Source: Picocystis sp. L7 (taxonomy: Eukaryota; Chlorophyta; Picocystophyceae; Picocystales; Picocystaceae). From it: a stretch of 64,000 nucleotides of DNA. Shown in pieces: positions 25,507 to 61,390 of this stretch. Positions within the stretch are counted from its first letter, which is position 1; each line of letters opens with the position of its first letter. The notes beneath the pieces were generated by a model. The model was not told the origin of the DNA, searched no databases, and saw only the letters and a list, made by a program, of their open reading frames with translations. Made by a program: the position numbers and the translations under genes. The DNA lies in NCBI GenBank assembly GCA_020975725.1, contig QXJR01000023.1:372001-436000 (forward strand), given 5' to 3'.

Positions 25507-28228
25507 GTCCGCTTCTGCGACCAAAGCACGCGGCCAAATGCGTGTCGCCTTCGACGATGTCGCAGCACAAATGACGTTCGTCTTCGCTCTTCGGTCCAAC
25601 CCTCTCCCACCACCACAGCTGTCGAAGAGCCGTTCGGATGGATGCACATGCCGCAGAGGAACGGTAGGGAGGCCAACGGAGGATCCTCGACGGGAAGGGG
25701 AAGGGAGGGAGGCGGAGGTTTGAATCGTGGACGGTGGCCGCAGAGGACGAGGGGAAGGGGAGGGACGTCCTCGACGCACAGGGAACCGGGGGCGAAGGGT
25801 GGGAATGGACCGTTGGGACCGGGAGGGGATCCGGGACCTCGAAGAGAGCAGGGGGGAGTGACCGTTGGACCTCGAATTCAAACCCATTCCCCCCACACCC
25901 GATGGACGAGAAAGGAAACCAAAAAGGCGCCGTGACCACGGACCATGTCGCGACCTCTGTATCCTCCGTCCAACGATCCGTGCCCGGTGGAGGGAAGGCA
26001 AGCGTGGGGCGAAAGTAAGGTGCACGGTCAAAGGGTGGCGCCTACACCGCATGACCTGCTAACAATCGAAAGATGGGAGCATTGCAAGGGTTGAATCCAA
26101 AGGCACCGGCGAGAGAGTCCAAGGACCCACGCACCACTCGTCAAGCAACATCCACTCTTCTCACAAACGATTCTCGACTCTCAACACATGAAACGTGACT
26201 TTGGGGCGGGAAGATTCCTCGAAGTCGCCAACGATCTTCCTCCTCTTCCCATCGCTTGCATGCAAGAGAATCATCAATGCAAAGTTGAAACGAGAGCCGT
26301 AAAAATGTGCGTAATTCATTCACCATGCATATTGAATTCGAATGGCGTTTACTTTCTATGCTCTATTGCGTACATTCGCGTCCAAGACATGTTCCTTGCA
26401 ACCTAGCCAATGCAACGGCCGATGAGCAAATCACATGTGCAATTCACAAACCGTGCAAAATCTGTAGAGCTTTGCTTTTCGGATTCACCTTCGTGATCTT
26501 GCCAGCTCGAAGAGTATGTGTGATGCTTGACTCGAATGTTACGACATACCGCGATGTTGTTGGGCATAGACTTTTCTCCAACCATTTTAAAAGGCGGTTC
26601 GCAACTAATGCAAGTGTAAACCAAGTTCGCAAAAATTGACGGGACATAAAACACGTGGGTTACTTGGACATTTTCTATTCCATCGCTAGCGATAGATGTT
26701 TGGTTTGCATCGCGCGAAGCAAGCGATCAAGGTGGAAGCAAACAAGTGCATGTGGAGTTCAAGGTAGAAAGCAAAAAACTTTTTCGAGGAGGAGATCTGT
26801 TGTACCTCAATCCAACTTCTCTTTATTCTTTCGATAAGATCTTGTCACAGTTGCCTCTGGGAGTTGACATGGTCGTCTTGAAGAATGCGATGCTTTTCTA
26901 CGACATCTACTCAGAAATGGCGGTGTATGTGGGAAATAATTTGTTGATGGGTTGAACGATGTTGGGTTTGTGCTACGCCTAGTAAAGTGCTCTCCACAAA
27001 GAGAATATACAACAATCTCCGCGTTCCATCTATTTCTTGGACACGAACACGTAACACCGTTGTGGATGTGCAAGGGACCATGCTCACCTTTCTTAGATTT
27101 CAAGCCCTTCGTACGTCTCGAACCGCCCATTCTCGACGTATCTTCTTCCATTGCTCAAATGATGAAGAAGACTTCTAGAAGTTTTACCAATACTAGAAGA
27201 AAACCTATCCGGATGTGTGGCCACACATAAGCAGTAAGACTCAAGTTTCCAAGTTGCATTGCCATTGCAAGAAGACAAAGTTGTTGCATCACGTTGGCGT
27301 TCCGTTCCACCCCTTTGGTTCGTTCTCAGAGAACAAGTTGAACCCATGTTTCCACGTGGTTGTCTACCGCACAACAAGGCCATTCCGCTTTATTTTAAAG
27401 ATAGGATATCCTTGCCTCTCCACGTACCTTGCTTGTTGTGGTTGCTTGCACCAAAAGGCTTCCATTTAAGGAGTTGGTTTACTCCGTTGAGCTATTCATA
27501 CGGGTGATCGTCCTTGTATGCATTCCTTTTCTCGTTGACTTCTCATTTGTGCGCATCGAAAATTATGATGTTTTTGTGGGGACTAAGTTTCTTTAGTAGG
27601 AACAACCCCATCTCCCTCGATCACCACTCCGTTGAGCAAGCCGACAAGCACCACCACCCCAAGCAACATCATAAGAGTAGGTTGCATCAGGCATGTCGAA
27701 CCATCGGTCACTTGAAGAATGCCAAACGCTTACAAACAGCCCGTCTGCTGCCATCGAAACGCACGAGCGTCATCCTTGGGACTGCGAATTCCCATCACCA
27801 TACTTCGAGCGCGATGCCCCGCTTGTCCTCGTCATTCTCACGTTTCTCAACTCCACGCACCGTCTTGTCCACCGAGCTTCACTCCAAAGGCGCGATTCCA
27901 TCGCCCTTCACGATCCTCGCCACATCGCACCTGTGGTGGACATCCCGTTTGTCTCGGGGATACTTCGACCCCCCCCCCCTCGCTTCACAACGGTTCACAA
28001 CTGTCGAATGCGGAGGAAGGAGGCAAGGAGGACGGGGTGCCACCCTTCGACCCCATCCTGTCCGTTCGTTTTCGTGTCTTGGCAGGGTCCGGGTCGATCG
28101 CAGCCGTCCATTCGTCCAGGTTTGGCACTGGACGTCGACTTCCTCGCGGGAAGCAGGATCGAAGCACGTGCTTCAACGAGACATTGTGCAGCTTCAGACG
28201 CACAAGAAGCTCTGCTGGGAGAGCAGAG
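25507..28228. other. Kinesin 5' region and long gene-poor interval
   Basis: 25507-26060 is GC-rich and probably the kinesin promoter/leader. 26060-27600 is AT-richer with short frames only. One stretch (26746-26955, plus) encodes 69 residues of protein-like composition but has no ATG start and no continuation. 27600-28228 leads into the TMEM128-like gene. No RNA gene was recognised. Confidence 0.4.
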
Positions 28229-31365: not shown

Positions 31366-32904
31366 ATGTGGAAGATGTCGGAAGCGCACGACGTGGCATG
31401 GTTCCGACAACACGCGCACGAGCTGGTGGACTGGATCGCGGACTACTACGAAGGATTGGAAGGTCGCAAGGTTTGTGCAGAGGTAGAACCGGGATACCTG
31501 CCTCCGCGCCTCCCGAAAAACGCACCAGAAGAGGCGGAAGAATGGAGCCAGGTCATGGAAGATGTGGAAGAGCATGTGATGCCTGGAATCACACATTGGC
31601 AATCTCCGAAGTTCTACGGATACTTTCCAGCCAACGTGTCCTATCCAGCCATATTGGGTGAAATGCTCTCGGCTACCTTCAATACGATCGGATTCTCCTG
31701 GACGGCTTGCCCGGCCCAAACGGAATTGGAGACTGTGGTCTTGGATTGGTTGGCTCGTGCCATGGAACTGCCGGAATGCTTCCATGCAAGCAATCCAAAC
31801 GGTGGAGGAGTCATCCAAGGGACGGCTTCTGAGGCCGTCCTGGTGGCACTGCTGGCTGCCAGGGCAAAAATCAAGGGCAAGTGGGAAGCCAACAATGGCA
31901 CACGTGGCACACCGGAGTCAACGATGTTTCGCAACGGCGGGACATCCCTGTCTGGTGAGAATTTTCCGGCCCATCTGCTGGTGGCATATACCTCTGATCA
32001 GGCGCATTCAGCAGTGCAAAAAGCATGCATGGTGGCTGGCATTGAACATTGGAGGAAGGTGACCACCGCAAAAGAAAACGGATACGCCATGCAGGCGGCA
32101 GACCTGGAACAAGCCATACAGGAAGATCTGGGCGAAGGAAGAATACCTTTCTTTGTTTGCGCAACGGTCGGGACCACCTCTTCCTGTGCAGTAGATCCGC
32201 TGGACTCGTTGGGTTGCGTTCTCCGGAAGCATGACCTCTATGGTCATGTCGATGCTGCATATGCGGGAAGTGCCATGGTTTGCCCAGAGTTCCGCATTCA
32301 CTACAGAGGAATCGACATGTGGCACTCCCTAGCTTCCAACTGTCACAAGTGGATGCTCACCAACTTTGATTGTACAGCTATGTGGACTCAAGACTCCAAA
32401 TCCATTTTGGACGCACTTTCGCTGACCCCGGAATTTCTACGAAACAAGGCGTCAGATAGCGGCGAGGTACGCGACTACAAAGATTGGCAGGTGCCCCTCG
32501 GCCGTCGCTTTCGTTCCTTGAAGTTGTGGTTTGTCATGCGCTCGTTTGGCCTCTCCGGCTTGCGTTCACACATACGAAACCACGTTGCCCTGGCAAGGAA
32601 ATTTGAAGGGTACGTGATGGCTGATAAAAGATTTGAAATCGCAGCAGAGAGTAGATTTGGGCTTGTTTGCTTCCGTTTACGTGGAAATGGAGCTGATATC
32701 ACGAACCGGCTTAACAGGCGGCTGTTGGACGCTCTCAATTCCTCTGGGGAGATGTTCTTGACGCATACAGTTCTGGATGGGTTGTGGGTGTTGAGAGTTG
32801 CATTTGGTGCGGTCAAAACGCAGGGGAGGCATGTTGATGAATCTTGGGGGTTGATAGCAAAGATGGCAGGTGAGATTCTGGAGCAGGAACTGTCCGACGC
32901 CTAA
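31366..32904 (+). CDS. Aromatic-L-amino-acid decarboxylase (PLP, group II)
   Basis: The 512-residue cytosolic-type enzyme decarboxylates an aromatic amino acid (DOPA, tyrosine, tryptophan or similar) to its amine. Family features run in order: N-terminal HELVDWIADYY, HWQSPKFYGYFPAN substrate-pocket segment, CPAQTELETVVLDWLA, GGGVIQGTASEA, DQAHSAVQKA, VDAAYAGSA with the PLP-pairing Asp, and SNCHKWMLTNFDC with the PLP lysine at residue 328. The C-terminal domain ends RVAFGAVKTQ...HVDESW. Length matches plant TDC/TyDC and animal DDC (480-520). No transit peptide is visible. The first ATG (31366) is followed by another three codons later; either could be used. The gene is intronless and converges with the ABC1 kinase gene. 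The substrate cannot be told by eye. Confidence 0.92.
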   Translation: MWKMSEAHDVAWFRQHAHELVDWIADYYEGLEGRKVCAEVEPGYLPPRLPKNAPEEAEEWSQVMEDVEEHVMPGITHWQSPKFYGYFPANVSYPAILGEMLSATFNTIGFSWTACPAQTELETVVLDWLARAMELPECFHASNPNGGGVIQGTASEAVLVALLAARAKIKGKWEANNGTRGTPESTMFRNGGTSLSGENFPAHLLVAYTSDQAHSAVQKACMVAGIEHWRKVTTAKENGYAMQAADLEQAIQEDLGEGRIPFFVCATVGTTSSCAVDPLDSLGCVLRKHDLYGHVDAAYAGSAMVCPEFRIHYRGIDMWHSLASNCHKWMLTNFDCTAMWTQDSKSILDALSLTPEFLRNKASDSGEVRDYKDWQVPLGRRFRSLKLWFVMRSFGLSGLRSHIRNHVALARKFEGYVMADKRFEIAAESRFGLVCFRLRGNGADITNRLNRRLLDALNSSGEMFLTHTVLDGLWVLRVAFGAVKTQGRHVDESWGLIAKMAGEILEQELSDA

Positions 32905-33124: not shown

Positions 33125-35166
33125 CTATGCAGCTGTCCATCTGTGCATCTGCCTTGAGATGGTCAGCAAAGTTCCCTCCACTGCCTTCGTTCCCGTCTCT
33201 CTGCACAACCCAAGGAAGAGACCGAACAAGGCGCGCAGTCCATCGGACTGGACCGTCGTCGTAGAAACCAGTTGAATGAAAAAATTGGGATCACTCACTA
33301 GCAAGCGTAGGGCAAACGAGGACTGTTCAGAAGTTCTGTAGAGCCTTGAAAAGATCATCTTTCCTCTGGTGGAAAGACTGCCATCTGCGAATTCTCCAAG
33401 AGTGGACCGATAGGCATCTAACAGATCTAGCTCCAGAGCACGACGGGTTTGGTTGCCTTGCTCCGAGAGAAGGAACAGTATGCCATCCTCTAATGCCTGC
33501 ACGTACGTCTCTTGGTACTCTGAAAAGCCCCAGCCTCCTGTCTCATTATTGCTGTTCTGTACTGCTTCCGTGAGTCGCTTCACCCGGTTCCAGCGAACTG
33601 TCCCGTCTGTATTGAGCACGATTGATAGCAGCATCCGCCTCATCTCAGGCGATCTGTCCTTCAAAAGCACCCGCAAAACATATGGGTAGGAACGGGAAAC
33701 CACCTGAAAACCACTTTGGACCGCAGAAGCTGTGCCTTCCAATGCTGCCAGCGACCGGATCACAGGAGCCAGTCTGGGAGGAACCCGGAAGGGAATATCC
33801 GCAAGCTTCGCCACGTTTGCTATGTGCTGGACTGCCCCTGCAAAGTCCATCTTCTTTGGGCCAGCCTTCTCCTCAAAAACCGGGCTCAAAGCGGCGATCC
33901 AGTCCCCAGTGGTAGTGCTTGGAGACAGGAAATCAAGCGACTGCAATGCAAGCACCAACGCTGCCGGGTCGTTGTTCACATATGCCACAAACGCTTTCAC
34001 CAAGCCATCCCGGTCAGATTTGTGTACTTCTGCAACATTGCCAAAATCCAAATAAATCAACGCCCCTCCAGGAGATGCCATGAGGTTGCCCGGATGAGCG
34101 TCCTGGTAGAGCAACCGAAAGCACGAGGTGAGCACAGGAAACGGTCAGCACCCCACCCAAACAACCATGATCGATGCGCTGCAGTTGGTGTTACTGCACT
34201 TGTGGAACGTACCGCGTGAAAAAAACCATCTTCTAGAAGCTGCTTGATGCCACAGAAGACTCCTGTTTCCACGAGTTTCTGTGTGTCGAGTCCCAGTCTC
34301 CGAACTCCTTCCTGATCGGTGAGCTTGATCCCATCCATCCATTCCATGGTGATGACTTTGCGAGTGGAATGTTGGTAGAAGACCTTGGGGACGTGAACGA
34401 TCCCTCCTGGTGGTGTATTTGTGCCATGTGTCTCACGGGTGTCGTACAGCTTGCGGAACCTATCGAGGTTGTTGGCCTCCCGTTTGTAGTCCAACTCCAA
34501 GAAGATGCGTCCCACCAGCTCATCTACCAGCAAAGCTGCATCCGATTGAATGCCATACTTCCCAGCATATCTTTTGGCCAACATGCTAAGCACCACCGCG
34601 TCCAAGGCCACCTGCTCCTGCAGCCTCGGACGTTGCACTTTGACAGCCACTGCGGTGGCATCGCCTCTGAGCCTTGCCTTGTACACCTGTCCCAAGGAAG
34701 CCGCACCCACTGGATAATGGCTGAAGGATTCGAACACTTCTTTGGGATCCTGCTGGAGCTCTTCCTTGAGGATCTGTCTGGCTTCTTCCTCTGGGAAGGG
34801 CGGGAGTCGATCCTGCAACTTGGTCAGTTCCAAGCAGTATTCTGGCGGAAGCAGATCCGGACGTGTGGCCAAGGCCTGTCCTAGTTTCACAAAAGAAGGT
34901 CCGAGCGTGGTGAGTCCAATTCGAAGCCTCACTGCACGTTCTTCCATGCTGCCACGCTTGAGGATGCCATTCACCAACCTCAAATAGCCGACACGAGAGA
35001 GGATCTGCCATGCTCTGCGAGCCAAGCGATGAGGACGTAGGTAGTAGTGCTTCCGGAAGGCTTCCAGGTCGTACGTGGACCAAGGAGGAGAGGCGTTTGC
35101 CGCAGTGGAAGCCGCTCGCGACGCGCGACGCCACCATGCGCGCATTCGGACGGTTGTGGTGGTCAT
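33125..35166 (-). CDS. ABC1/ADCK (UbiB-family) atypical kinase, two exons
   Basis: Exons 35166-34213 and 34102-33125 give 643 residues. The 110-nt intron (GTACGT...CTCTACCAG, branch GCTGACCG) falls inside the catalytic segment and joins FFHA to DAHPGN in phase. Visible family marks are the KxGQ motif SFVKLGQALATRPDLLP (about residue 95), the ATP-site Lys in VAVKVQRP, an acidic switch region, DAHPGN, and DFGN with the metal-binding Asp. Plant and algal relatives (ABC1K) sit in plastoglobules or mitochondria and control prenylquinone metabolism. The N-terminus (MTTTTVRMRAWWRRASRAAS) is Arg/Ser/Ala-rich, consistent with organelle import. The ABC1K subgroup is not determined. It converges with the decarboxylase gene, 220 bp apart. 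Confidence 0.9.
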
Positions 35167-37406: not shown

Positions 37407-38905
37407 CAAAAGGGCAAGCGGAGGGGAGCCCTCCCCAAGCCAAGACGATGCTGCACCTTTCCACCACGCGCTCCGGCCGCTGCATGAAAGCGAGGATCGC
37501 TATCCACACCTGAAATCCGTGGACTAAAAGAAAACTTTCACGAGGTAACGATACTCCGAAGCGAGACATGATGTCCAGCCTATCCACGTCGAGGACGTGA
37601 ACATGCGGATTTCGAAAGAGAACGATGTCCGGGAGGAGGAGGTCCAGGAACCAAGGGTGGAGCCAGGGTAACACACGGGTGCGTGTGTGCAGGGGAGCAA
37701 GGGTTTGCCATTTAGCATCCCCCACGAACCAGCAGATTGGCGGTGGGTTGCCCAACATCAAAGGTGACGTGCCATCGGGGATCTCAGTACGATCTTGCTT
37801 TCCGCGTTCGAATGGGTGACCCATGGCAGGAGAGAGTAAAGTCAATGCCATCCAGCATTCCTTGGCCTCACAAGTCCATCTCAAGAGTTCTGAATGCTTT
37901 TCTGACCCCTCTCCTTTGACCCACAGCACCAGATGTCGCGTGGCGCCTGTCCCGGGCGCCGTGGTATGTTGGTTGGGATTTCCAAAAGGAAGAAAGCACG
38001 CGGCAGCGCTGCTGCTTGCAACACACAAAATTTGGATGGCCGGTTACTGCTTTGCTGTTCTGCAGCTCGTCCATGGCCGCTTTGGTTCTGTCTTGAGGAG
38101 GCAACTAATTCATCTTGGTGCACGTTGGGGATCGGAACAAAGGCTTTGGTTCCAGCTTCTATTCTAGCCTCGGTCTCGCGCAGAACTCTCCTGGATTTCA
38201 CAGGTGCGCGAGTACTCAACGATGGGCGTCACTGTGTTCTCGAAAGCTTCGATGGTGGTTGTCAAGGCAGAGCGATTTGAGAGTGGCTGTGCAGTGTGCC
38301 CGAGGCACACTACCATGTGGGGAAGGGCTCAGATCAGGCTTCCATGACCATCATTGGTTGAAACAGGGAAACATCTCGTTTCACTCTCGCGCTTCAGCAG
38401 CCCAAGATCTGCTCCTTGGAGTTGGGTTTGATCCATCTCCTGTAATTTGTTCGGTGTGACAATTCAATTGGAAAGGTTTCCAATACTTCACCGCGATGTG
38501 CGTGGCAGCAGAGTCAGGCTGAACGCAGCAGTGCATGCCTGGCAGCGCGTCCCTGTCCACCGCTCAGTAACGTTTGAGGCATCCGTCCTGTGCCCGGTGT
38601 TTCACGGTCCATGGGAACACGGATGCAGATCCAGACATCCCGATTCCATCTCTCCAGCGCGCCTTGCGATCGCCGTCCCTTTCTACACCGGATCCACCTG
38701 GACTGGTCCACATCTCCATCCACATGAAACGCCGTGTTCCAATTGTGTGTCTGGGTGGGTTACAATGGTGGGGCTGGATCCCCCACCAGGAGTGCTGGGC
38801 TCCCCCCAGGTCCCCTCGTCCACTGCCACGTGGATGCCAACTTGCGTCCGTACATCTGGGTTCCTTCACTTTTTTCTGGAGCGAAGGAACGAAGGAGCGT
38901 TGGCG
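37407..38905. other. Interval with an unresolved minus-strand reading frame
   Basis: A minus-strand frame open at 38028-37264 has protein-like content (for example SELLRWTCEAKECWMAL, PWFLDLLLPDIVLF, VLDVDRLDIMSRFG). It has no ATG at its front and runs into the antisense of the RING gene. Upstream minus-strand fragments near 38170-38440 also look coding but fall in other frames, as exons might. A plus-strand branch-like CTGACC with a following CACAG at about 37896-37926 confuses the picture. I cannot build a reliable model, and no family is recognised. 38450-38905 is probably the 5' region of the dioxygenase gene. Confidence 0.3.
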
Positions 38906-40573
38906 ATGGAGGTCCTCGAAGCGTCGCGAAACGGGCTGCGATGGATGGCAGGACTTGCCTTGGACGTGATGGAAGCGATGCTGGCATGGATGCGACAGAA
39001 GGTGTCGCAACCAGAAGCCTTGGGTCGGAACCTACTCAGCAATCCGTACTGGAAACCCATCCACGAAGAAATCCATGCCATACAGTTGCAAGTGGTGGGC
39101 GAAATACCCAAGAGCTTGAGAGGAGGTGCATACTTGAGGAACGGTCCCAATGCAGCACATCAACCCATCGCTTCCATGCACTTGTTCGATGGAGATGGCA
39201 TGGTGCATGTGGTCCGATTCCACGAGGACGGCGGTGCAGCTTATGCCAACCACTATGTGAGGACCAAAAGATGGAAGATAGAAGCTGATGCCGGAAGAGC
39301 GCTGGTGATGAAGATTGGAGACCTCACGGGTGTATGGGGACTGTTCGTGCTCGCCATCAACAAGGCGAGGCACAAGCTGCAAATCATACCCGCATGTGAC
39401 AAAGGAGAGGACCTGGGTGCAGCCAACACGGCTCTGATATGGCATGCCGCAAGGGTGCTAGCCTTGCACGAAGGTGACGTACCATATGCACTCCGCATCC
39501 TTTGTGATGGTGCTCTGCAAACCTTGGGGGCACTGCAAAAAGCGGCCGCTGATAATCCTCGTGTTCAAGATGCATTCATGGCACTGCCCCATGTTTGCAC
39601 GGCACACCCCAAACGAGATCCCCGAAATGGAGAACTGCTCACGTTCGGCTATCAGGTGGAAGATGCGCCCTATTTGGAAGTATCTCTTGTGTCGAAGGAA
39701 GGGAAGACATTGCGATCAGTCCCTATCGAAATCCAAGAGCCAGTGATGATACACGACTGTGCAATGACTGACAAGTATTTCATTCTGCTAGACTGTCCGC
39801 TCGTGTTTGACCCCAAGATTATGGTCTCCAAAGGGACCCTTCCGTTTGAAATGCGCAATCGAAACACAAGGATTGGGCTTGTTTGCAGAGAGGCACTTAG
39901 GAATGGCGATGAGATTCGGGTGCAGTGGATGGAGCTCCCTCCGTGTTTCATCTTCCACACCGTGAATGCTTGGGATGCCGAAGACGGTTCCGTGATCATG
40001 TACGTGTGCCGTTTTGAAACCTTCAACTTGGGTGGGTTCAAGGGACAGTTGCCGCACCTCTACCGCTTTGATCTGTATCCTGCAACTGGATCTGCAAGCC
40101 AAAAGCAATGCTTGGAGATGGATTGGGGACTGGACTTCCCTAAGGTTCACGAGGGCTTGCTAGGGTTGCCCACACAATATGCATACTTCCTGCGGGTGGG
40201 GAAGCTATTTGCGGAGCCCGGGGAAGCATCTTCTACCTTGGTGAAGGTGGATCTTCAGCGATGCCAAGTGGTGGGAGAAGTAGGATTCGGCCCTGGCTTC
40301 ATGGCCGGCGAAGGTTTCTTTGTCCCAAACTTAATGGCAACCTCGGAGGACGATGGGTTTCTACTGTCTTTCGTCGTTGACGTTGAGGGAGAAGAGAGTT
40401 TTTTGGCAGTTGTAGACGCTCAAAACATGTCGCAAACGCTTGTTGCCAAGATCAAAATCCCACACCGGGTCCCGATGGGGTTCCATGGCCTCTACATCAC
40501 AAAGGAGGAGTTTGACATGCAAAAGAATGGCACAAGTTGGGAAAGCGCAGGGTTGTCAAAACCTGCAGCCTAA
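38906..40573 (+). CDS. Carotenoid cleavage dioxygenase
   Basis: The 555-residue non-heme iron enzyme is predicted to split a carotenoid or apocarotenoid double bond with O2. The four iron-binding histidines of the family are all present: His234 (CTAHPKRDP), His283 (MIHDC), His351 (FHTVNAWD) and His527 (GFHGLYI). GGAYLRNGPNA and HLFDGDGMVHVVRF are the usual early blade motifs of the seven-bladed propeller. The N-terminal amphipathic helix (RNGLRWMAGLALDV) could bind membranes; a clear transit peptide is not seen, as in CCD1-type enzymes. I start at ATG 38906; the longer open frame upstream is leader. The substrate is unknown. The gene converges with MGDG synthase, only 118 bp apart. Confidence 0.9.
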   Translation: MEVLEASRNGLRWMAGLALDVMEAMLAWMRQKVSQPEALGRNLLSNPYWKPIHEEIHAIQLQVVGEIPKSLRGGAYLRNGPNAAHQPIASMHLFDGDGMVHVVRFHEDGGAAYANHYVRTKRWKIEADAGRALVMKIGDLTGVWGLFVLAINKARHKLQIIPACDKGEDLGAANTALIWHAARVLALHEGDVPYALRILCDGALQTLGALQKAAADNPRVQDAFMALPHVCTAHPKRDPRNGELLTFGYQVEDAPYLEVSLVSKEGKTLRSVPIEIQEPVMIHDCAMTDKYFILLDCPLVFDPKIMVSKGTLPFEMRNRNTRIGLVCREALRNGDEIRVQWMELPPCFIFHTVNAWDAEDGSVIMYVCRFETFNLGGFKGQLPHLYRFDLYPATGSASQKQCLEMDWGLDFPKVHEGLLGLPTQYAYFLRVGKLFAEPGEASSTLVKVDLQRCQVVGEVGFGPGFMAGEGFFVPNLMATSEDDGFLLSFVVDVEGEESFLAVVDAQNMSQTLVAKIKIPHRVPMGFHGLYITKEEFDMQKNGTSWESAGLSKPAA

Positions 40574-46170: not shown

Positions 46171-46181
46171 GTCCCCCCCCT

Positions 46182-46305
46182 GGAAGCGACTGAAAAATGG
46201 TCCCCCAAGGGGCTGAATTTCGGTCCCCCCCCCTCCAGATGCACTTTCGAACAGATGCACCCCACTCGATCGACTTAACCCAGTGTTTACGAAGGGAAGG
46301 CGGGG
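46182..46305 (+). repeat. Left TIR of the 717-bp element
   Basis: Contains two copies of a CTGAA...GGTCCCCC motif (46191-46206 and 46213-46232), then the block ATGCACTTTCGAACAGATGC, and matches 46775-46898 inverted. Confidence 0.88.
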
Positions 46306-46774
46306 ACAATCGAAAAGAACGGAACGGCTACAAACAAGAAGGTCGATTCGAAACCAACAAAATCGTCTGAAGGTCCCTGCTATGGGTCATGCATCACGTG
46401 GCCCATTTGGAAGCGAATGGTACATCACGAACTCTGAAAAAGGGATGCTACATGGAGGAGTGGCAACGCTAACTTGCAGACGTCTTGTCATGGAACCACC
46501 ACGTGAGGCTTCGAGACGCTTTCAACGTGGTATCCTTGAGATTGCATGAAGGTCGCCTTGCATTTGTAGTGCGCAAGGATGGTAAATGTTTTGTACATCC
46601 ATTTTGTTCTCCCATGAAGAACCTAGAAGGGAGGAAAACTTGCATCAGCGGTGCCCAGAGACGGAAGGGAATGACCTCGTGATCACCCACTAGGTTTATT
46701 GTCGTTGCTCAGACCCACGTTCTTCCCCGTTCCTATCGTTTCTTGCATGGTAGTTCCGTCCCTCTTCTTGTTTC

Positions 46775-46898
46775 CCCGCCTTCCCTTCGTAAACACTGGG
46801 TTAAGTCGATCGAGTGGGGTGCATCTGTTCGAAAGTGCATCTGGAGGGGGGGGGGACCGAAATTCAGCCCCTTGGGGGACCATTTTTCAGTCGCTTCC
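46775..46898 (-). repeat. Right TIR of the 717-bp element
   Basis: Inverted copy of 46182-46305. The second 11-bp target duplication follows at 46899-46909. Confidence 0.88.
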
Positions 46899-47242
46899 GT
46901 CCCCCCCCTGTGTGTGCCTGTGGTTGTGCACGTCTCTGTCCATCGCCTGGGGACCTGTTCGTTGGCCCGTGTGGACGGGGTCGGACGTGTTGGGACGTGG
47001 GGTTGTGGGATGGGCGATGGGATCGTGTCCACGTCCTTGGCAGGGATCCCATCGATGCGTGTTCGTGCCACGTCTGGTGGTGGTTGCGTCCTCGGATTCG
47101 TCCCGTCCTTCGTGGGGGATCGATTGGGACAGGCGGGGGTTTGGAACGGGAGACAGGCCCACGTTCCCGTCCACGCCGTTCCCGTCCCATGGATCTCCCA
47201 CCTCCCTCCTCCCCGTCGTTTCGGCGACATCCTTCCCCCCTC
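46899..47242. other. Short unique DNA between two Mutator-like elements
   Basis: Apart from the two target duplications at its ends, this roughly 345-bp stretch shows no feature. Confidence 0.5.
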
Positions 47243-47962
47243 GGTTGTGGCTGAATGTTGACCCCCCCCTCGGCTGAATGTCGACCCCCCCCCCCCTTTT
47301 GGATAAACTTCTCTCATGTTTACAGCAGGGACGGGTTCGACCGACTGGAAATTGGACCCCCCTCCTGGCCCGCGGGTCCGAGGAAGGGAGGGAAAGGATC
47401 GACACTCCGAGGGGGACACAGGGGCTGGGCAGGGATCCAGGAAACTTCGGCCGACATCCGACGCCAGAAAGATGCAAGATCGGACGAACGCGTGCGGTGT
47501 GTCGTGCGCCATGGACGGACGTCCACGTGGGAAGACCAGGGCACACGACACATCGTGCGAGACGCCTGGAAAGGCCGAGAGGAACGAAGGAGGAGGAAGA
47601 AGGCGAAAGGAAAGGAGCGAAAAACCTGGCAAGGTCAAAAGGCGGATCTTGCCAGGGCACGAAACAGGGAAGAATCCAGCCACCACGGGGGACAACTGGG
47701 GCTGAAAGGATGTCTTCCGTGGTGGATGGACGAGGACCGGGGACGGCGCGTGGAACCATGATGGGAGAGGGTAGACGAGCGTAGGGGACGAAACGGAAGA
47801 CGAGGGGACGACCGCCACCAAGACGCGTCGGTGTCGAACCAATAGGTCGACACATGCCATCGACGAAGGCATACACGAACCGGAACAGGACGTGACGACG
47901 GGAGAGGAGGATCTCTGGAACGGCAAGGCGACCATGGGCACGGGAAGAAACACAGTGGATGG
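47243..47962 (+). repeat. Left 720-bp TIR of the MULE
   Basis: It begins with two tandem copies of a GGCTGAATGTYGACCCCC motif (about 47249-47269 and 47271-47296), then unique sequence shared with the right TIR. Open frames across it are mirrored exactly at the other end, so they are by-products of the repeat and not genes. Confidence 0.95.
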
Positions 47963-48081
47963 AATGCTATGCATCTCGACGACGACTTGTGCAGGTTGCC
48001 GTCGAAATGCATGGGCAATGTCTCGGAAGGCTTGCAAGGGCATTCCTCTAGTGTCAGGGGTGTGGGTCTCTTGGCGCCAAA

Positions 48082-50373
48082 ATGTCGTTCAAACCCACCC
48101 CACCTGGCAGTAGTGGGGGGCTTGGAGAGGGTGCCTCAGAAGAAATCTGTCGTGCTGCTTGGGTCACTGAACACGCTGCGAGGGTGAGAGCGACGAACTT
48201 CGAAGGGCACAAGAGCGGAAGCATGTCAACAAGTCCACAAGCGATTCGTAGTGGACTCCGCAACCCAGAATTACCTAGCCATGGTTGTTTAGAGTTCAAA
48301 GATTGGCTCTTGCAAAGTGAATGTTTGATAGAACAAGCAAAAGGATGCACTAGCCTTTCCACTCATGAAGAAGAATGGCTCGGTAATGCACTTTCTGAAA
48401 CACAACCTGATAAGCTTGGAGTGTGGGTGAAGAAGACCTCGAAAGGGAAGAAGAAGAGCAAACTTCCTCGATCAACCCAAGACAATTGTCTTCTGCTCCG
48501 GCGGTGGTCATGCAATGCCTCCAAAAATTGCGGATGCAAAGCGGAGGTCATGCTTATTAGAAGGGAATTGGGATATCTTTGCTTGCTTCAAAAGGTAGAA
48601 CATGACCATGAACAACACATTCCTCACCCAGAATGGAAGAAGCAACCACTTCCACGGAAGTTGCAAGTAGAATTGACGAAGTATTTGGACAGTGACATGC
48701 TCATCCCCAAAATAATGCAACAACTTGAATCATGTGGCTTTGATTTTGAAGGGGTCACCAAGAAAAAGGTGCGGAACTTCTTGACACACCAACGGAAGAA
48801 GGTTGGATGCCGAGGTACTAGAGTTGATGTGGAGGCTTTCGTGCAAAACAATTTATTTGATGAATCGAGGCAATTTGGCGCAGATGATGTCTTTGTGGTT
48901 GACTGGAACCTCCCGAAGGAGGTTGATGAGGAATCCTTCTTCAGAGAATTCAGATTGAGTCTCTCATGCCCTAAAATGGTCGAGTGGATCAGACAATGTA
49001 CGAACGGTACGTGCCCACGGCAACTTACCATTGATGCAACCTTCAAGATCATTACAGACGATAAATTCATCCTCATGGCAAGCGGTATTACGGACGCAAA
49101 TTGTCATTGGTTCCCCTTTCTTTACAGTTTGGTCCCTACGGAGAGCCAAGACAACACAATGTTTCATCTCAGCTCCATTTGGAAATTACTAAAGGATGAT
49201 GCAAGACAATTCTTCGAAGGTATCTACATATTGAAAGATGCAGGCGCAGGAATACATGCAGGGGTCCGAGCCTTTGGCGACTTGAAAGCTTTGAAGTGGC
49301 ACCAACAAGATTGTTATGCCCATTTGAGTAGAGTGGATGGAAATCTACAACAAGCTTGCAAAAAATACCATGTGCCGGCAAACATCGCAAGCACGATTGC
49401 CATATACGTCAAGCGAATATCATTTAGCCCAACCAAGGAAATCAAGAATGCTTTGCTCGAGAAGTTGGAGGTGGAATGCAGTGCATTTGAAGAATTTGTG
49501 CAGTGGTGGAAGCGAACCTACGGTGGGCCGTTCAGGTATTGGGCACGTTGTGATGCCCCTCACGGATATCCCGTTAGCAACCAAGGCCACGAAAGCAACA
49601 ACAAAACATTCAAGAAGGTGCACATGCCTGGCCGTTCAACACAAAGGCGGCTTCACATCCATCGAGCTCTTGGACCCTTGAAGAACGCAATATCATCCCT
49701 TGTGCGAGAGAAGAGGAGAGAATACACGTTCGCCGCCAATCCTTGCGAGGATGTCCCTCAAAAATTATGGGAAGATGTTGATATGCTTCTCATGAGCGCT
49801 GATTGGTCCTTTCGCCAAGAAGTTGATTGCTTTACATTGTTACCGTCACAAGGCTTGTTGAAGAACGTTCATGGTAAGGCTCAAACTTTGGCGAGAGCAG
49901 AAATTTCAAGTTGGGTTGTTCATTCAAATGGTTTCGAAGAAAAGTTCCTCCTTGAATGTGAGTTGCACATGCACCGTTTACTTGCCTTAGAGGCCAAACA
50001 AATTGTAGAAGTTGGCTTGCAACCAGCCCAAGAAGAGACACTTCCAGCTTATTGCAATCGATGGGCAAAGTGGACGATCATCGCCGAAGGTTGCACATGC
50101 TGTGCATTTATTGACAAGGGCACATGCAAGCACTACCTGGCACTACAAGTGCACAAAGGGACGCTGGCGTTTCCACAGCACCTCAAGGTCATGCAAAAGT
50201 CCCGCCACGACTACTTGAGGATGCGTTACCTGAAAGATCTTACAAGAAAGCAAAAAGAAGTACATTCTGCAAGCGAGCAAAGGAAGAAAAGATTCAAACT
50301 TGGTATGCTTGAACTTCACCAAGCTACACAACCAAGCAACAACGATTCGCTCATCAAAGCAGCAGACTTGTAG
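48082..50373 (+). CDS. MULE transposase with SWIM zinc finger
   Basis: The 763-residue protein has the standard Mutator order. At about 135-200 is a Cys/His module (CNASKNCGCKAEV ... EHDHEQH) like the WRKY/FLYWCH-type DNA-binding domain. The RNase-H-like core has its first Asp in LTIDATFKI (about 317), second Asp in YILKDAGAGIHAG, and a probable catalytic Glu in NQGHESNNKTF. A C-terminal SWIM finger follows, GCTCCAFIDKGTCKHY (CxC...CxH). The ATG is at 48082, 120 bp inside the left TIR; the stop is 5 bp before the right TIR. No interruption is seen. This is a MuDR/FAR1-related DNA transposase, intronless as annotated. Confidence 0.93.
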   Translation: MSFKPTPPGSSGGLGEGASEEICRAAWVTEHAARVRATNFEGHKSGSMSTSPQAIRSGLRNPELPSHGCLEFKDWLLQSECLIEQAKGCTSLSTHEEEWLGNALSETQPDKLGVWVKKTSKGKKKSKLPRSTQDNCLLLRRWSCNASKNCGCKAEVMLIRRELGYLCLLQKVEHDHEQHIPHPEWKKQPLPRKLQVELTKYLDSDMLIPKIMQQLESCGFDFEGVTKKKVRNFLTHQRKKVGCRGTRVDVEAFVQNNLFDESRQFGADDVFVVDWNLPKEVDEESFFREFRLSLSCPKMVEWIRQCTNGTCPRQLTIDATFKIITDDKFILMASGITDANCHWFPFLYSLVPTESQDNTMFHLSSIWKLLKDDARQFFEGIYILKDAGAGIHAGVRAFGDLKALKWHQQDCYAHLSRVDGNLQQACKKYHVPANIASTIAIYVKRISFSPTKEIKNALLEKLEVECSAFEEFVQWWKRTYGGPFRYWARCDAPHGYPVSNQGHESNNKTFKKVHMPGRSTQRRLHIHRALGPLKNAISSLVREKRREYTFAANPCEDVPQKLWEDVDMLLMSADWSFRQEVDCFTLLPSQGLLKNVHGKAQTLARAEISSWVVHSNGFEEKFLLECELHMHRLLALEAKQIVEVGLQPAQEETLPAYCNRWAKWTIIAEGCTCCAFIDKGTCKHYLALQVHKGTLAFPQHLKVMQKSRHDYLRMRYLKDLTRKQKEVHSASEQRKKRFKLGMLELHQATQPSNNDSLIKAADL

Positions 50374-50378
50374 TCCAT

Positions 50379-51097
50379 CCATCCACTGTGTTTCTTCCCG
50401 TGCCCATGGTCGCCTTGCCGTTCCAGAGATCCTCCTCTCCCGTCGTCACGTCCTGTTCCGGTTCGTGTATGCCTTCGTCGATGGCATGTGTCGACCTATT
50501 GGTTCGACACCGACGCGTCTTGGTGGCGGTCGTCCCCTCGTCTTCCGTTTCGTCCCCTACGCTCGTCTACCCTCTCCCATCATGGTTCCACGCGCCGTCC
50601 CCGGTCCTCGTCCATCCACCACGGAAGACATCCTTTCAGCCCCAGTTGTCCCCCGTGGTGGCTGGATTCTTCCCTGTTTCGTGCCCTGGCAAGATCCGCC
50701 TTTTGACCTTGCCAGGTTTTTCGCTCCTTTCCTTTCGCCTTCTTCCTCCTCCTTCGTTCCTCTCGGCCTTTCCAGGCGTCTCGCACGATGTGTCGTGTGC
50801 CCTGGTCTTCCCACGTGGACGTCCGTCCATGGCGCACGACACACCGCACGCGTTCGTCCGATCTTGCATCTTTCTGGCGTCGGATGTCGGCCGAAGTTTC
50901 CTGGATCCCTGCCCAGCCCCTGTGTCCCCCTCGGAGTGTCGATCCTTTCCCTCCCTTCCTCGGACCCGCGGGCCAGGAGGGGGGTCCAATTTCCAGTCGG
51001 TCGAACCCGTCCCTGCTGTAAACATGAGAGAAGTTTATCCAAAAGGGGGGGGGGGTCGACATTCAGCCGAGGGGGGGGTCAACATTCAGCCACAACC
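50379..51097 (-). repeat. Right 719-bp TIR of the MULE
   Basis: Inverted copy of 47243-47962, starting 5 bases after the transposase stop codon. The 3' end of the transposase transcript must therefore lie inside the TIR. Confidence 0.95.
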
Positions 51098-51552
51098 CTT
51101 CCCCCCTCTCCCCAAACACCCCCACGTCCACACCTCCACGTCCCCGCCCCTGTGGCAAACCGGCTTCCCTTCTCCCTTTCCCTTCCCTCCCTGGCTTCGG
51201 TTTCTTCCATTCCAAAGGGAAGGGACCACATCCCTTTCTCCCTCCTCTCCCCATCCAGCTTGGTTCGTTGGGGGATTGGGATGGTAAGGACGCCATCCTC
51301 CTTCGATCCCCCCCCCCTCCTCCCCTTCCGAACGCGAAGAAAAACAAACAAAAAAACAAAAACAAAACAAAACAAAAAAGAAGAAGAAGAAGAAGAGGCC
51401 TTCCCATCGCCGAAGACCTCCACGGTCGCTTCGCCACTTGATCGAAAGAAAGGAAAGGAAAGGAAAGGAAAGGAGAGGAAAGGAAAGGAAAGGAGAGGAA
51501 AGGAAAGGAAAGGAAAGGAAAGGAAAGGAAAGGAGAGGCGAAGCGCCTCGCC
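51098..51552. other. SF3B4 5' region with simple repeats
   Basis: After the MULE target duplication (51098-51108) comes GC-rich DNA, then an A-rich AAAC/GAA tract (51342-51398) and a GAAAG pentanucleotide run up to 15 bases before the ATG. Confidence 0.5.
51444..51538. repeat. AAAGG/AGAGG pentanucleotide microsatellite
   Basis: About 95 bases of AAAGG units with occasional AGAGG, almost certainly in the SF3B4 5' leader or core promoter, since the ATG is at 51553. Confidence 0.9.
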
Positions 51553-57691: not shown

Positions 57692-60600
57692 ATGGTCGAT
57701 CACGTGGGTCCCCCCCCCATCCATGAGAGAGGGAAAAGGGACTTGTTTTCAGACGTGGAAAAGAGGGCGATGGAGTCGGCATGGACGAGCGCGCTGTGGA
57801 GCACGGAATCGAGCCGAGAGGCCGAAGGACTGCTGTACTGCGAAGCACACAACGTGTCCTACGCGCACCGCGTGGTGAACCGCGACGACGACAACTTCTG
57901 CGCCGTGCCGGACGGGAGTGCGGATGCCGTGCTCCTGGCGGCACTGGCCATCACCTTCGCCTGCGTGCTGCGTGGGAAGCTCAGCGCCGTATGGCTGCTC
58001 CTGGCCGGCATGGCCACGCAGGTGCTCGTCTATGGCGTCAACACCTGGCACTTGGGCAACGCCACGGTGCTGTGGACCAGTGCAAGGCCACCGGAAGTCT
58101 TCTATTTCGTGTTCCTGCCCGCACTCATGTTCGAATCCGCATCCAACCTGGACGCATTCCTCTTCAAGAAGGTGCTGATTAAGGTCCTGGTGTTCGCCGT
58201 CGCGCTCGTGCTTGTGCAAACGGGACTTACCGCCTTCTCCTTGGTGTACCTGCTCGACCTCAGGAAGTATGGATGGACCGTGGAACATGGCCTGCTCATG
58301 GGAACTACCCTTTCCATGACAGATGCAGTCGCAGTCACCTCCGTGCTTGCCACCACGGATGCACCGGAGGAGCTCGGGGTGGTGCTGGAAGGGGAAAGCC
58401 TCCTCAACGATGCCAGCGGTTTCGTGCTCTTCAGCATGTTCCTCAAGTATGCAACCGATAACGTTCCCCTCAGCGCTGGGTTCGTTTTCACCCAGGCTCT
58501 GTGGGACATGCTGCTGCTTGGAATCGGCGGCGTACTCGTCGGTGCGTTCTTTGGTTATGGTCTTATTATCACGCTTCACTACATGAGGAGGGCGGGGCTG
58601 GACAGAGAACCAGAAATTGCCATGTCAGTGGCGGCCGCGTACTTGTGCTTCTACGTCGCTCAGGGTCCAGCCGGCTTCTCTGGACCGGTTGCTGTGGTTA
58701 CCACCGGGCTGATGGTGAATGCGAAAGGTAAGGCAGACCTCTCGCCAGGTGTGCAAGAGCTCTGGCATAGGTTCTGGGGGTTGCTGGCCTTTATGGCCAA
58801 CGGCATGGTCTTTTTCTTCGCCGGCGTGTCCGCTATGAACTTCATACTGTTTGCTGGGCACCACAAGAGCTTTGACAAGACTTTGAGCTTGGCTTATCTG
58901 CCCTTGATCTATGTGCTGCTTTTTGCTCTGCGGTTCCTCTGCATATGCCCCATCTGGATTTTTTCAAGGCTTACTTCTGAAAACCCAAAGTCAGCCATGA
59001 CGATAAACGACGTGGTTTTCCTGACCTTCACCGCACTCCGTGGTGCTATGTCGCTGATTCAAGAGAACGAAGTCATTCTTCAACCAGGGATACCAGAGTC
59101 TGTCAAACTTCAAATGGTTGTATGGACAGCTGGATTCACATTGATGACAATCTTGATCAACGTCCCTTTGCTACCGTGGCTCTTCAGGCTAACTGGACAT
59201 TCTAGCCGTGCAGTGGGCCAAGCATATCTTCACACAAAAGCAATCCAATCACTCCACAAATTCACAAGGCGAACTGTGGAGGCAATGGTTAACCTGGAGG
59301 TTCTGAAAAAAGCAGATTGGTCGTATGTGCTGGATAGCGTTCTGCCCAATCTTCCGGAAGATACAAAGGAACTATCGCAAGTTGAATTTTCAGACGAGGA
59401 GTCCCTCACTCGTCCATTGCTGACTGTTCAACAAGCCAGCCCAAAAGCAGAACAAAAGCTCAAGCAGCCATCAAATAGTTTTAGAAGATTCGCAGACTTG
59501 TTGTTCAAGCAACCAGCTGAGGCCGAAGTGCATTTTCTACCACTTTGTGAAGAGGCAGCACAGCCTTCTCCTGGCAAAGTGGCACCCGGGGATGAACTTT
59601 ATGGGACCAACGCTGAAAACGCACAACACTCCATTGACATCTCCAAGGAAGCAAGCCTCCAAAAGTTCGCAGTTGAAGAGTCAATGCTCCAACCAAGTTC
59701 CTTTCATTCCTCTTCAGAAGATCCAAGCCTCGCAAACATGGCCAAGGGTTCCAATATGTATGGATTCAGCCATTCGAAAGAGGATGCAGATGATCCTTAT
59801 CTTGACGAAATGAGGGCAAGGCTGGTTGCTGGACTAAAGCACTACATCTACAAGAAGCGAGCGGAGGGCTTCCTGTCGCCAAGCGGACTACGTTGGTTGA
59901 AGTATGCTTTGGACAAGCAGCTTGACAGTGGTGGAAGGCTTGCCATCTGGGCGTATGTTGAATCGCAGATAAGTGGTGGTAAAACAGTGTGGCTGGCTGG
60001 TGCACTTGATCAGTTCATCCGGCGGGCACTGCAACCTACCCTGCAATTCAAGGTATTCCGGTGGATTGTTCGCAAAACCACAAGACCGCTTCTCAATGTT
60101 TTGAATAATAAGCATTTGCTGAGCGAAGAAATAGCGTCAGACTACCTCAGGGCCCTTCTCAATGGGAACCACAATCACTGGTTGAAGGAAGTTCCTTCGC
60201 TGGTCGAAGAGGTGGAGAAGGAGATATCAAGCTTGCGGCAGTACCTTGAATATGCCGAGCTGGAATCTCCAGAACGTACAAAGGCAATCCACTCTTACAG
60301 GGCCATCGTCGCAGCCCTCACACAGCAGCAAACCTTTGTAGAGGAGCTTTTTGAAGGGGGCATGATCAAAGAGTCAGAAAAGGAACAAATCCTTGCCCCT
60401 ATCACATCGAAGCGTGAGAGTGTTATTGCACAGGGACCTAATTGGAAGATCTCTGGTCTGCTTGGTGGTTTGAAATCAGTGCCTGGCTTCGGAAGATTTT
60501 CTAGCGAATGGCTTTGGCGGTACTTGGTTACGAAAGGACAGCTCAAGACTTTCGACAGTGGTAAACTCCTGCTTGACGGTACAACAACCGACAGTGCAGG

Positions 60601-61390
60601 GTGCGGTCTATCTATTGTGTTGACTGGTTTCGTTCGCAATGATTGGGATGATACCTGCAACAGGCAGCTGTATAAAAGCGGGATTTGCTTTGTCGGGCTG
60701 CTCTCCTCTCTCATTGGAAGGCAGCCCCTCCTAACGAAGAAAGTTCACAGTGAAGGTGCACTGCAACGTGGAACTACGATATTTCACTTGAGTCAGAGTG
60801 TCATAGAGGAGTTCAAGACCATGGCATTGCAAGGTGACATTCAAATGGTGCAACTCATGGCAGACCTGCACCGTCTTGCTGCCATGGAGATTGTCCATCT
60901 CATGCAGGACGAAATTGACTGCGCTTTGCGACACTCCGTTGTCTTCAGGCCAACGTCAAGGCTGTGGAAACGAGCAGCCAGAGCATTTCTACGCAGCAAG
61001 AGCTTGCAACAGGGGAAACCAGCAGGCGGAGCTGACAGGCAGGGTGGCCCTGACCTCAGTCTTGCTCATACAATAATTTCGATGTTGGAAAGCGCAAGTG
61101 TTCTACAAATGCTCCCGAAGCAGAAAGCGATTGCCCAAAATCATATTGTTCTTCTTCAAGGGTCTATAAATGTCGTACGTGATCAGAGGGAAGCTGAAGG
61201 AACTGCTGTCATTCCTGTAACTTTCAACACAAGGAAGCACCCTCTCGAAATCGAAGCAGGACCATCTGGGGCTTTGGTGGTGGTTTGTCGTGCATTGGGG
61301 GATGGTGGGTTCTTCCACTCAAACCTTCTGCCACTTCCGAAGGGAGCATTTCACTATGTTGCATGGAGTATGCATGAGAAGGGCTCCTGA
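57692..61390 (+). CDS. Na+/H+ exchanger (CPA1/NHE family) with long cytosolic tail
   Basis: The 1232-residue antiporter is predicted to swap Na+ for H+ across the plasma membrane or an endomembrane. Residues about 80-510 carry 11-13 hydrophobic helices. Family marks include FLPALMFESASNLDAF (inhibitor-binding helix, about 140), DAVAVTSVLATTDAP, GEGESLLNDAS-type motif EGESLLNDASGFVLF (about 234, ion-binding Asn-Asp) and TALRGAMSL (about 446). The 720-residue tail is helical and charged, and ends in a beta-rich region (about 1130-1232). That layout recalls SOS1/NHX7-type exchangers and sperm NHE, whose tails hold a cyclic-nucleotide-binding-like fold; no clear CNBD signature is seen here. A second ATG at 57770 is an alternative start. 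It is intronless. Confidence 0.88.
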   Translation: MVDHVGPPPIHERGKRDLFSDVEKRAMESAWTSALWSTESSREAEGLLYCEAHNVSYAHRVVNRDDDNFCAVPDGSADAVLLAALAITFACVLRGKLSAVWLLLAGMATQVLVYGVNTWHLGNATVLWTSARPPEVFYFVFLPALMFESASNLDAFLFKKVLIKVLVFAVALVLVQTGLTAFSLVYLLDLRKYGWTVEHGLLMGTTLSMTDAVAVTSVLATTDAPEELGVVLEGESLLNDASGFVLFSMFLKYATDNVPLSAGFVFTQALWDMLLLGIGGVLVGAFFGYGLIITLHYMRRAGLDREPEIAMSVAAAYLCFYVAQGPAGFSGPVAVVTTGLMVNAKGKADLSPGVQELWHRFWGLLAFMANGMVFFFAGVSAMNFILFAGHHKSFDKTLSLAYLPLIYVLLFALRFLCICPIWIFSRLTSENPKSAMTINDVVFLTFTALRGAMSLIQENEVILQPGIPESVKLQMVVWTAGFTLMTILINVPLLPWLFRLTGHSSRAVGQAYLHTKAIQSLHKFTRRTVEAMVNLEVLKKADWSYVLDSVLPNLPEDTKELSQVEFSDEESLTRPLLTVQQASPKAEQKLKQPSNSFRRFADLLFKQPAEAEVHFLPLCEEAAQPSPGKVAPGDELYGTNAENAQHSIDISKEASLQKFAVEESMLQPSSFHSSSEDPSLANMAKGSNMYGFSHSKEDADDPYLDEMRARLVAGLKHYIYKKRAEGFLSPSGLRWLKYALDKQLDSGGRLAIWAYVESQISGGKTVWLAGALDQFIRRALQPTLQFKVFRWIVRKTTRPLLNVLNNKHLLSEEIASDYLRALLNGNHNHWLKEVPSLVEEVEKEISSLRQYLEYAELESPERTKAIHSYRAIVAALTQQQTFVEELFEGGMIKESEKEQILAPITSKRESVIAQGPNWKISGLLGGLKSVPGFGRFSSEWLWRYLVTKGQLKTFDSGKLLLDGTTTDSAGCGLSIVLTGFVRNDWDDTCNRQLYKSGICFVGLLSSLIGRQPLLTKKVHSEGALQRGTTIFHLSQSVIEEFKTMALQGDIQMVQLMADLHRLAAMEIVHLMQDEIDCALRHSVVFRPTSRLWKRAARAFLRSKSLQQGKPAGGADRQGGPDLSLAHTIISMLESASVLQMLPKQKAIAQNHIVLLQGSINVVRDQREAEGTAVIPVTFNTRKHPLEIEAGPSGALVVVCRALGDGGFFHSNLLPLPKGAFHYVAWSMHEKGS

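Follow-up and report, generated by a model that had tools for sequence, protein, structure and literature searches.

A probably autonomous Mutator-like element and its relatives in Picocystis sp. L7, with insertion sites biased to C/G runs and long arms that change together

Mutator-like elements (MULEs), in the available sections of one account (PMC6446971), encode a DDE transposase with a SWIM finger in many groups, generate target site duplications (TSDs) of 8-11 bp and end in terminal inverted repeats (TIRs) of 14-500 bp according to the text, with lengths reaching 640 bp in a table. In MuDR, as an excerpt of another paper states, promoters reside in the TIRs (PMC3310237). The available parts of two further reports describe MULE-type elements that prefer simple repeats, MuTAnT of Medicago (PMC4486113) and the Ac-mMITEs of pineapple (PMC8449440); their targets are (TA)n and their duplications 9 bp or 9/10 bp long, and the Ac-mMITEs are moreover clustered by adjacent insertion, with no autonomous element found by their authors in the portion of the report at hand. 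In Muta1 of Aedes aegypti, an intact MULE with non-autonomous derivatives, the ends contain tandem repeats, the TIR is 145 bp, the duplications are 8-9 bp and, in the accessible part of its description, there is no apparent sequence preference (PMC5225508). ISCth4 of the IS256 family, a bacterial insertion sequence with copy-out/paste-in transposition, combines an RNase H-like core and a helical insertion domain and is related to MULEs (PMC7780238, in excerpt). The element described here lies in a 64,000-nt stretch of Picocystis sp. L7 DNA (GCA_020975725.1, contig QXJR01000023.1, positions 372,001-436,000, forward strand), which we call the window and whose coordinates are used wherever a position has no prefix. 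It has the DDE transposase, SWIM finger, long TIRs and TSD length of the MULEs of PMC6446971, but differs from what is described there in TIRs of 646-721 bp across all seven of its families, in insertion sites at C/G runs and in a protein that stays under the Pfam cut-off. Simple-repeat preference and clustering recall MuTAnT and the Ac-mMITEs, whereas the targets are C/G runs, the duplications 11 bp and many copies intact; the end repeats and non-autonomous derivatives recall Muta1, and the likeness to ISCth4 is one of predicted fold.

A sequence-only reading had placed a whole, very young MULE in the window, with both boundaries legible to the base, and these boundaries were recovered: the tip GGTTGTGGCTG occurs at 47243 and 51097, both facing inward, bounded by a perfect duplication of CTTCCCCCCTC (Table 1). 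As that reading also held, the arms differ by one base of a C-run, with no substitutions and a single 1-base gap, and make up about 37% of the element (37.4% by our measurement). Its description of the TIRs as long stands as far as length goes, although they are not far above the published range (up to 640 bp in the table of PMC6446971, as far as that source is available). The transposase stop codon, which had been put 5 bp ahead of the 3' arm, is separated from it by four bases on recount. Tandem Repeats Finder detected in the element no tandem repeat besides the 23-bp tip unit, with only 1.9 copies per tip; the arms are thus not mainly tandem modules, and assignment to the foldback class was rejected. 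Scanned against Rfam at gathering thresholds, the window gave no match. It is unlikely that the inverted repeats are an assembly artefact, because many copies carry duplications of their own.

Table 1 Features of the window element, its non-autonomous neighbour and expanded relatives. Prefixed positions refer to other contigs of the assembly.
Feature	Position	Strand	Remark
Left duplication of non-autonomous neighbour, GTCCCCCCCCT	46171-46181	.	
Non-autonomous relative, 717 bp	46182-46898	.	F5 ends (97-98% over 116-117 bp)
Right duplication of non-autonomous neighbour, GTCCCCCCCCT	46899-46909	.	
Left 11-bp target site duplication, CTTCCCCCCTC	47232-47242	.	
Whole Mutator-like element, 3855 bp	47243-51097	+	
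Terminal inverted repeat, 5' arm, 721 bp	47243-47963	+	
Tandem end units, 5' arm	47249-47292	+	23 bp x 1.9 copies; form kept in 7/7 families
Transposase ORF, 763 aa	48082-50373	+	stop-free
N-terminal Cys/His segment C144...C152...H174xH176, WRKY/FLYWCH-like	48511-48609	+	weak local WRKY match; FLYWCH in 6/16 relatives
Putative catalytic D318	49033-49035	+	invariant 16/16; model
Putative catalytic D386	49237-49239	+	invariant 16/16
C411-x2-H414, between second D and E	49312-49323	+	invariant 16/16
Putative catalytic E504	49591-49593	+	invariant 16/16; local pLDDT <50
SWIM-type C671xC673...C682xH684	50092-50133	+	nearly invariant; Pfam SWIM in 8/16 relatives
Terminal inverted repeat, 3' arm, 720 bp	50378-51097	-	
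Tandem end units, 3' arm	51048-51091	-	
Right 11-bp target site duplication, CTTCCCCCCTC	51098-51108	.	11/11 identical to left
Expanded element	C3:1002523-1018793		perfect 11-bp duplications
Expanded element	C13:201656-213053		perfect 11-bp duplications
Expanded element	C26:749617-758045		perfect 11-bp duplications
Expanded element	C4:336306-344973		perfect 11-bp duplications

The uninterrupted 763-residue transposase was found as described. Its proposed DDE core and SWIM-like finger are upheld by conservation among 16 relatives (Table 1) and by the predicted fold, whose best solved-structure match is ISCth4, with Hermes also matched; E504 sits within a low-confidence stretch of the predicted model. 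Against Pfam, the window protein gave no match at E <= 0.01, SWIM included, and the MULE family PF10551 reached 16.3 bits vs a cut-off of 27.6 bits; judged by E-value, PF10551 matched 7/16 relatives at E <= 0.01 (best 3.1e-4). Comparison with the PDB by sequence and by profile likewise gave no match. C411 and H414 form a C-x2-H motif of the kind that we take to be a Mutator-like feature. With a DDE/RNase H-like core, C-x2-H, zinc finger, a TSD within 8-11 bp and long TIRs, the element is, as judged from sequence and predicted structure, a member of the MULE superfamily.

Within the 20.5-Mb host genome there are at least 43 protein matches to the window transposase, at least 20 of them stop-free over at least 650 query residues, and we group the related elements into at least seven families, F1-F7. 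F1, the family of the window element, has one intact copy, the other two (contigs C3 and C1) being truncated, so that a recent burst is without support. A genome search for further copies with such tips and 11-bp duplications, which the sequence-only reading had proposed as a check, was productive: the tip pattern GGWWGYGRCTKAAWDWTG has 108 matches, vs none for the same pattern read backwards as a control, and 36 of 45 examined end pairs have a perfect duplication. Fifteen elements with both tips inside the retrieved loci were measured; L010, L014, L017, L021 and L023 were excluded for truncation, a contig end or an interrupted arm. In every one of the 15 the arms span 646-721 bp with at least 97.9% identity, and 13 have perfect 11-bp duplications. 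In all seven families the tip consists of a pair of tandem units, approximately CTGAAWWWTGRYCCCCC and GCTGAATTTCGRCCCCCCC, and these doubled end units would be a likely binding site for the transposase. Each of the seven comparisons between families shows saturation at synonymous sites with a dN of 0.25-0.51, the pattern expected under functional constraint on the protein. Substitution counts within families are small and mixed, one F6 pair having no synonymous and five replacement changes.

Where do these elements insert? The 45 end pairs for which both flanks were read were hand-picked from the first 100 of the 108 tips, supplemented with the help of self-alignment; unpaired and truncated tips were unused, and sites inside one array are not independent of each other. 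Of the nine imperfect pairs, six are accounted for by 1-bp slips, and among the 41 pairs of the flank profile 38 are perfect or have at least 10 bases agreeing with a 1-bp slip. Among the 36 perfect duplications, seven are pure C or G tracts and uninformative, because there the duplication is indistinguishable from the tract; the other 29 are informative. The sites are strongly biased to C/G runs: 25/45 contain at least nine C or at least nine G, vs 89/59029 (0.15%) of window 11-mers outside elements, and a second background of all retrieved sequence outside paired elements gives 492/136420. The five duplications with fewer than six of either C or G (GGGTGACCCAG, GGGGACTCCCC, GGTCCCAGGCC, GGGGACCCAGC and GAGGAGCCACC) are G/C-rich with no dominant base. 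TA-microsatellite targeting of the MuTAnT type was considered and rejected, since the sites are C/G-rich and no TA repeat was found among the 45 duplications. Membership of the MULEs is ordinary, and what is new is the targeting of C/G runs; among the matches listed in the open-licence literature, we found no MULE with such a preference.

It is possible to see in all of this only ordinary young MULEs, with arms identical through recency and C/G sites that reflect composition or survival in harmless DNA. The genome does contain C-runs (787 overlapping C or G 11-mers, elements included), and selection would remove insertions in genes, an effect inseparable here from target choice. However, pure C or G tracts of 11 bases occupy about 4e-5 of genome positions vs 8/45 left duplications, and C/G richness is maximal at the duplication itself (mean 8.51 of 11), dropping to about 6 nine bases off. 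The bias as such is open to both target choice and selection against insertions elsewhere, which these data cannot separate. As for the arms, the window copy, with no arm substitutions and a perfect duplication, is what youth predicts, but youth cannot put the same change into both arms of one copy when it is absent in the sisters, and this is the case at 36 of 55 variable arm positions. We therefore regard this explanation as unlikely, if less so than those considered below.

The count of 36 rests on simple reasoning: in independently mutating arms, a copy-specific change is expected in one arm only. By family, symmetric substitution columns number 20/26 in F4 (five of seven loci), 4/6 in F3 (both copies), 2/3 in F5 (two of three), 2/9 in F6 (three copies) and 8/11 in F7 (two copies, including a stop-bearing one on C19); gap columns were excluded, and F1 and F2, with one complete copy each, fall outside the count. 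Independent mutation simulated under a simple equal-sites model gave a mean of at most 0.05 and a maximum of two symmetric positions per family. The most striking case is the F4 copy L016 (C26:713080-716617), with 15 private substitutions at arm columns 167-319 (153 bp), each in both arms; its middle has 10-11 differences of about 2137 from sister copies. F5 was considered as the source of this patch, but its match of 80.6% vs 74.6% for the usual F4 sequence is not decisive. In addition, in the F1 copy on C1 the C-run marks the junction between an F3-type tip and F1 sequence. Together with the symmetric changes, this suggests that rewriting of one arm from the other recurs and that tips are exchangeable. 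The stop-bearing F7 copy (C19:425766-429497; duplication 9/11) has arms 99.4% identical (3 mismatches/666 columns); homogenisation without its own transposase is possible, but the copy could have been mobilised in trans. Homogenisation may take place during transposition itself or in the time between moves. For the arms of maize Mu elements it may already be known; in the open-licence literature, we found no account of symmetric arm evolution among the matches listed.

Near-identical 700-bp inverted repeats are difficult for short-read polishing, which raises the question as to whether the symmetry arose in assembly or polishing, with reads of one arm correcting the other. This is very unlikely: equally similar arms of different elements remain distinct while the symmetric changes are common to the arms of one element, 19 of the 55 variable positions are still asymmetric, and the L016 patch places as many as 15 changes in both arms. 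That the transposase is a domesticated host gene with the TIRs as remnants would fit the purifying selection on the protein between families, but is scarcely credible given the perfect duplication, the intact matched ends and the many related intact elements at different sites.

Repeated homogenisation has a direct consequence for dating, as arm identity then dates at most the last homogenisation and arms are no safe clock. The earlier claim that the window element is very young on the strength of its TIRs is therefore only partly sustained: identity of homogenised arms does not prove extreme youth, and the perfect duplication and absence of arm substitutions indicate that the copy is probably a fairly recent insertion. 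Gaps apart, it has 22 mismatches/3317 aligned columns with the C3 copy and 19/1658 with the C1 copy; with gaps included, it differs from these two truncated relatives by 0.8% and 1.4%. On sequence grounds the window element is complete and probably autonomous, and a candidate active transposon. Across 11 elements representing the seven families, the stop codon lies from 49 bp inside to 110 bp short of the 3' arm, the ORF running into the 3' TIR in two other families, F4 and F7. With the stop codon abutting the arm in the window element, and within the arm in F4 and F7, the end of the transcript is probably encoded by the 3' arm, which makes the termination inside the TIR proposed by the sequence-only reading plausible. 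TGTAA is a poly(A) signal in green algae; as a general terminator in the 3' arm it was rejected, since it follows the stop only in F1 and F6 of the seven families. Identity of the arms also means that a promoter located in the 5' arm would recur in inverted orientation in the 3' arm, from where antisense RNA could arise.

The neighbourhoods of several copies are crowded. A 717-bp non-autonomous relative with its own perfect 11-bp C-run duplication, GTCCCCCCCCT, lies 344 bp to the left of the 3855-bp element. On contig C26 (761692-770175) an F2, an F6 and an 889-bp element stand in a row, spaced by just 12-15 bp of C/G run, and an additional GGAAGCGA tip follows past another 12-bp C-run; on C1, an F3 element and a 716-bp element adjoin, again 12-15 bp of C/G run apart. 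One F3 copy on C3 is flanked on the left by an F1 arm that is cut at its C-run and on the right by an F3-type and an F1-type tip in tandem, so the history of this site is not simple. Three non-autonomous copies of 716-717 bp have arms of 124-151 bp at 91-95% identity, and in two elements with F1 ends (C3, C23) the arms measure 128-158 bp and are 98-99% identical. At the other extreme, expanded elements of 8.4, 8.7, 11.4 and 16.3 kb retain perfect 11-bp duplications (Table 1). In the 11.4-kb element about 7.6 kb splits the transposase match between residues 177 and 181, and those on C26 and C4 each contain about 4.9 kb of extra DNA, as given by the length difference.

We think it likely that the window element is a complete, probably autonomous MULE; its anatomy, intact transposase and 11-bp duplications, the sister families, the non-autonomous derivatives, the C/G-run site bias and the joint change of the arms are observed. 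On this explanation, the transposase would bind the doubled CTGAA...CCCCCC end units, excise the element and insert it, across an 11-bp stagger, into C/G-rich DNA. The gene would be driven by a promoter in the 5' arm, with the 3' end of its transcript supplied by the 3' arm. The long arms may pair during transposition or break repair, one being copied onto the other so that identity is maintained, and such copying may have let the arms grow inward until they met the gene. With C-runs as landing pads, elements would accumulate side by side and could land in each other's C-rich ends. C-runs occur in both ends and targets, suggesting the hypothesis of one recognition mode for both. A bolder combination, which we put forward tentatively and think rather unlikely, is a lineage that homes to poly-C/G through the C-run recognition that also serves at its own ends; each insertion would duplicate 11 bp and thereby renew the landing pad, giving arrays and landings in ends, and each move would rebuild one arm by foldback copying, leaving arms that have grown to the gene edge and do not age.

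If true, a preference of a MULE lineage for poly-C/G runs would add a new target class beside the TA microsatellites already known, and such targeting would be directly testable in a genome that is compact and has many intact copies. Concerted arm evolution cautions against using TIR identity to date DNA transposons, and at the same time provides a natural record of the way in which long inverted repeats stay identical. Being intact and having matched ends, the element could also serve for gene tagging in green algae.

Finally, the lineage has so far been found only in this alga and a few other, partly doubtfully labelled sequence sets. Searches of 5.8 billion proteins returned 16 and 17 sequences, the only named ones being two EukProt proteins labelled Pavlova lutheri; distant MULEs are beyond the reach of this method because it requires shared 5-residue words. 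Viral contigs searched for relatives gave no match, and bacterial and archaeal genome contigs gave two pattern matches, neither related to the element. That the host is an alga, as the sequence-only reading had assumed, agrees with 18 chlorophyll-binding matches in its genome, the one compared with the PDB matching chlorophyll a/b-binding proteins. This match and the closest named relatives of a neighbouring decarboxylase, which are of the green lineage and rank after 99% and 81% matches, indicate a green-plastid alga, whose plastid could by these data also be a secondary one. The two EukProt proteins (P0001, P0008) that match transposases of this green-plastid genome bear a haptophyte label, which does not fit chlorophyll a/b proteins and is therefore doubtful, probably reflecting contamination or a mislabel. 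Host genes recognised by Pfam in the window encode a kinesin (19513-26052), a PLP-dependent decarboxylase (31366-32904), an ABC1-type kinase (34057-35166), an RPE65-type carotenoid oxygenase (38765-40573) and a Na+/H+ exchanger (57692-61390).
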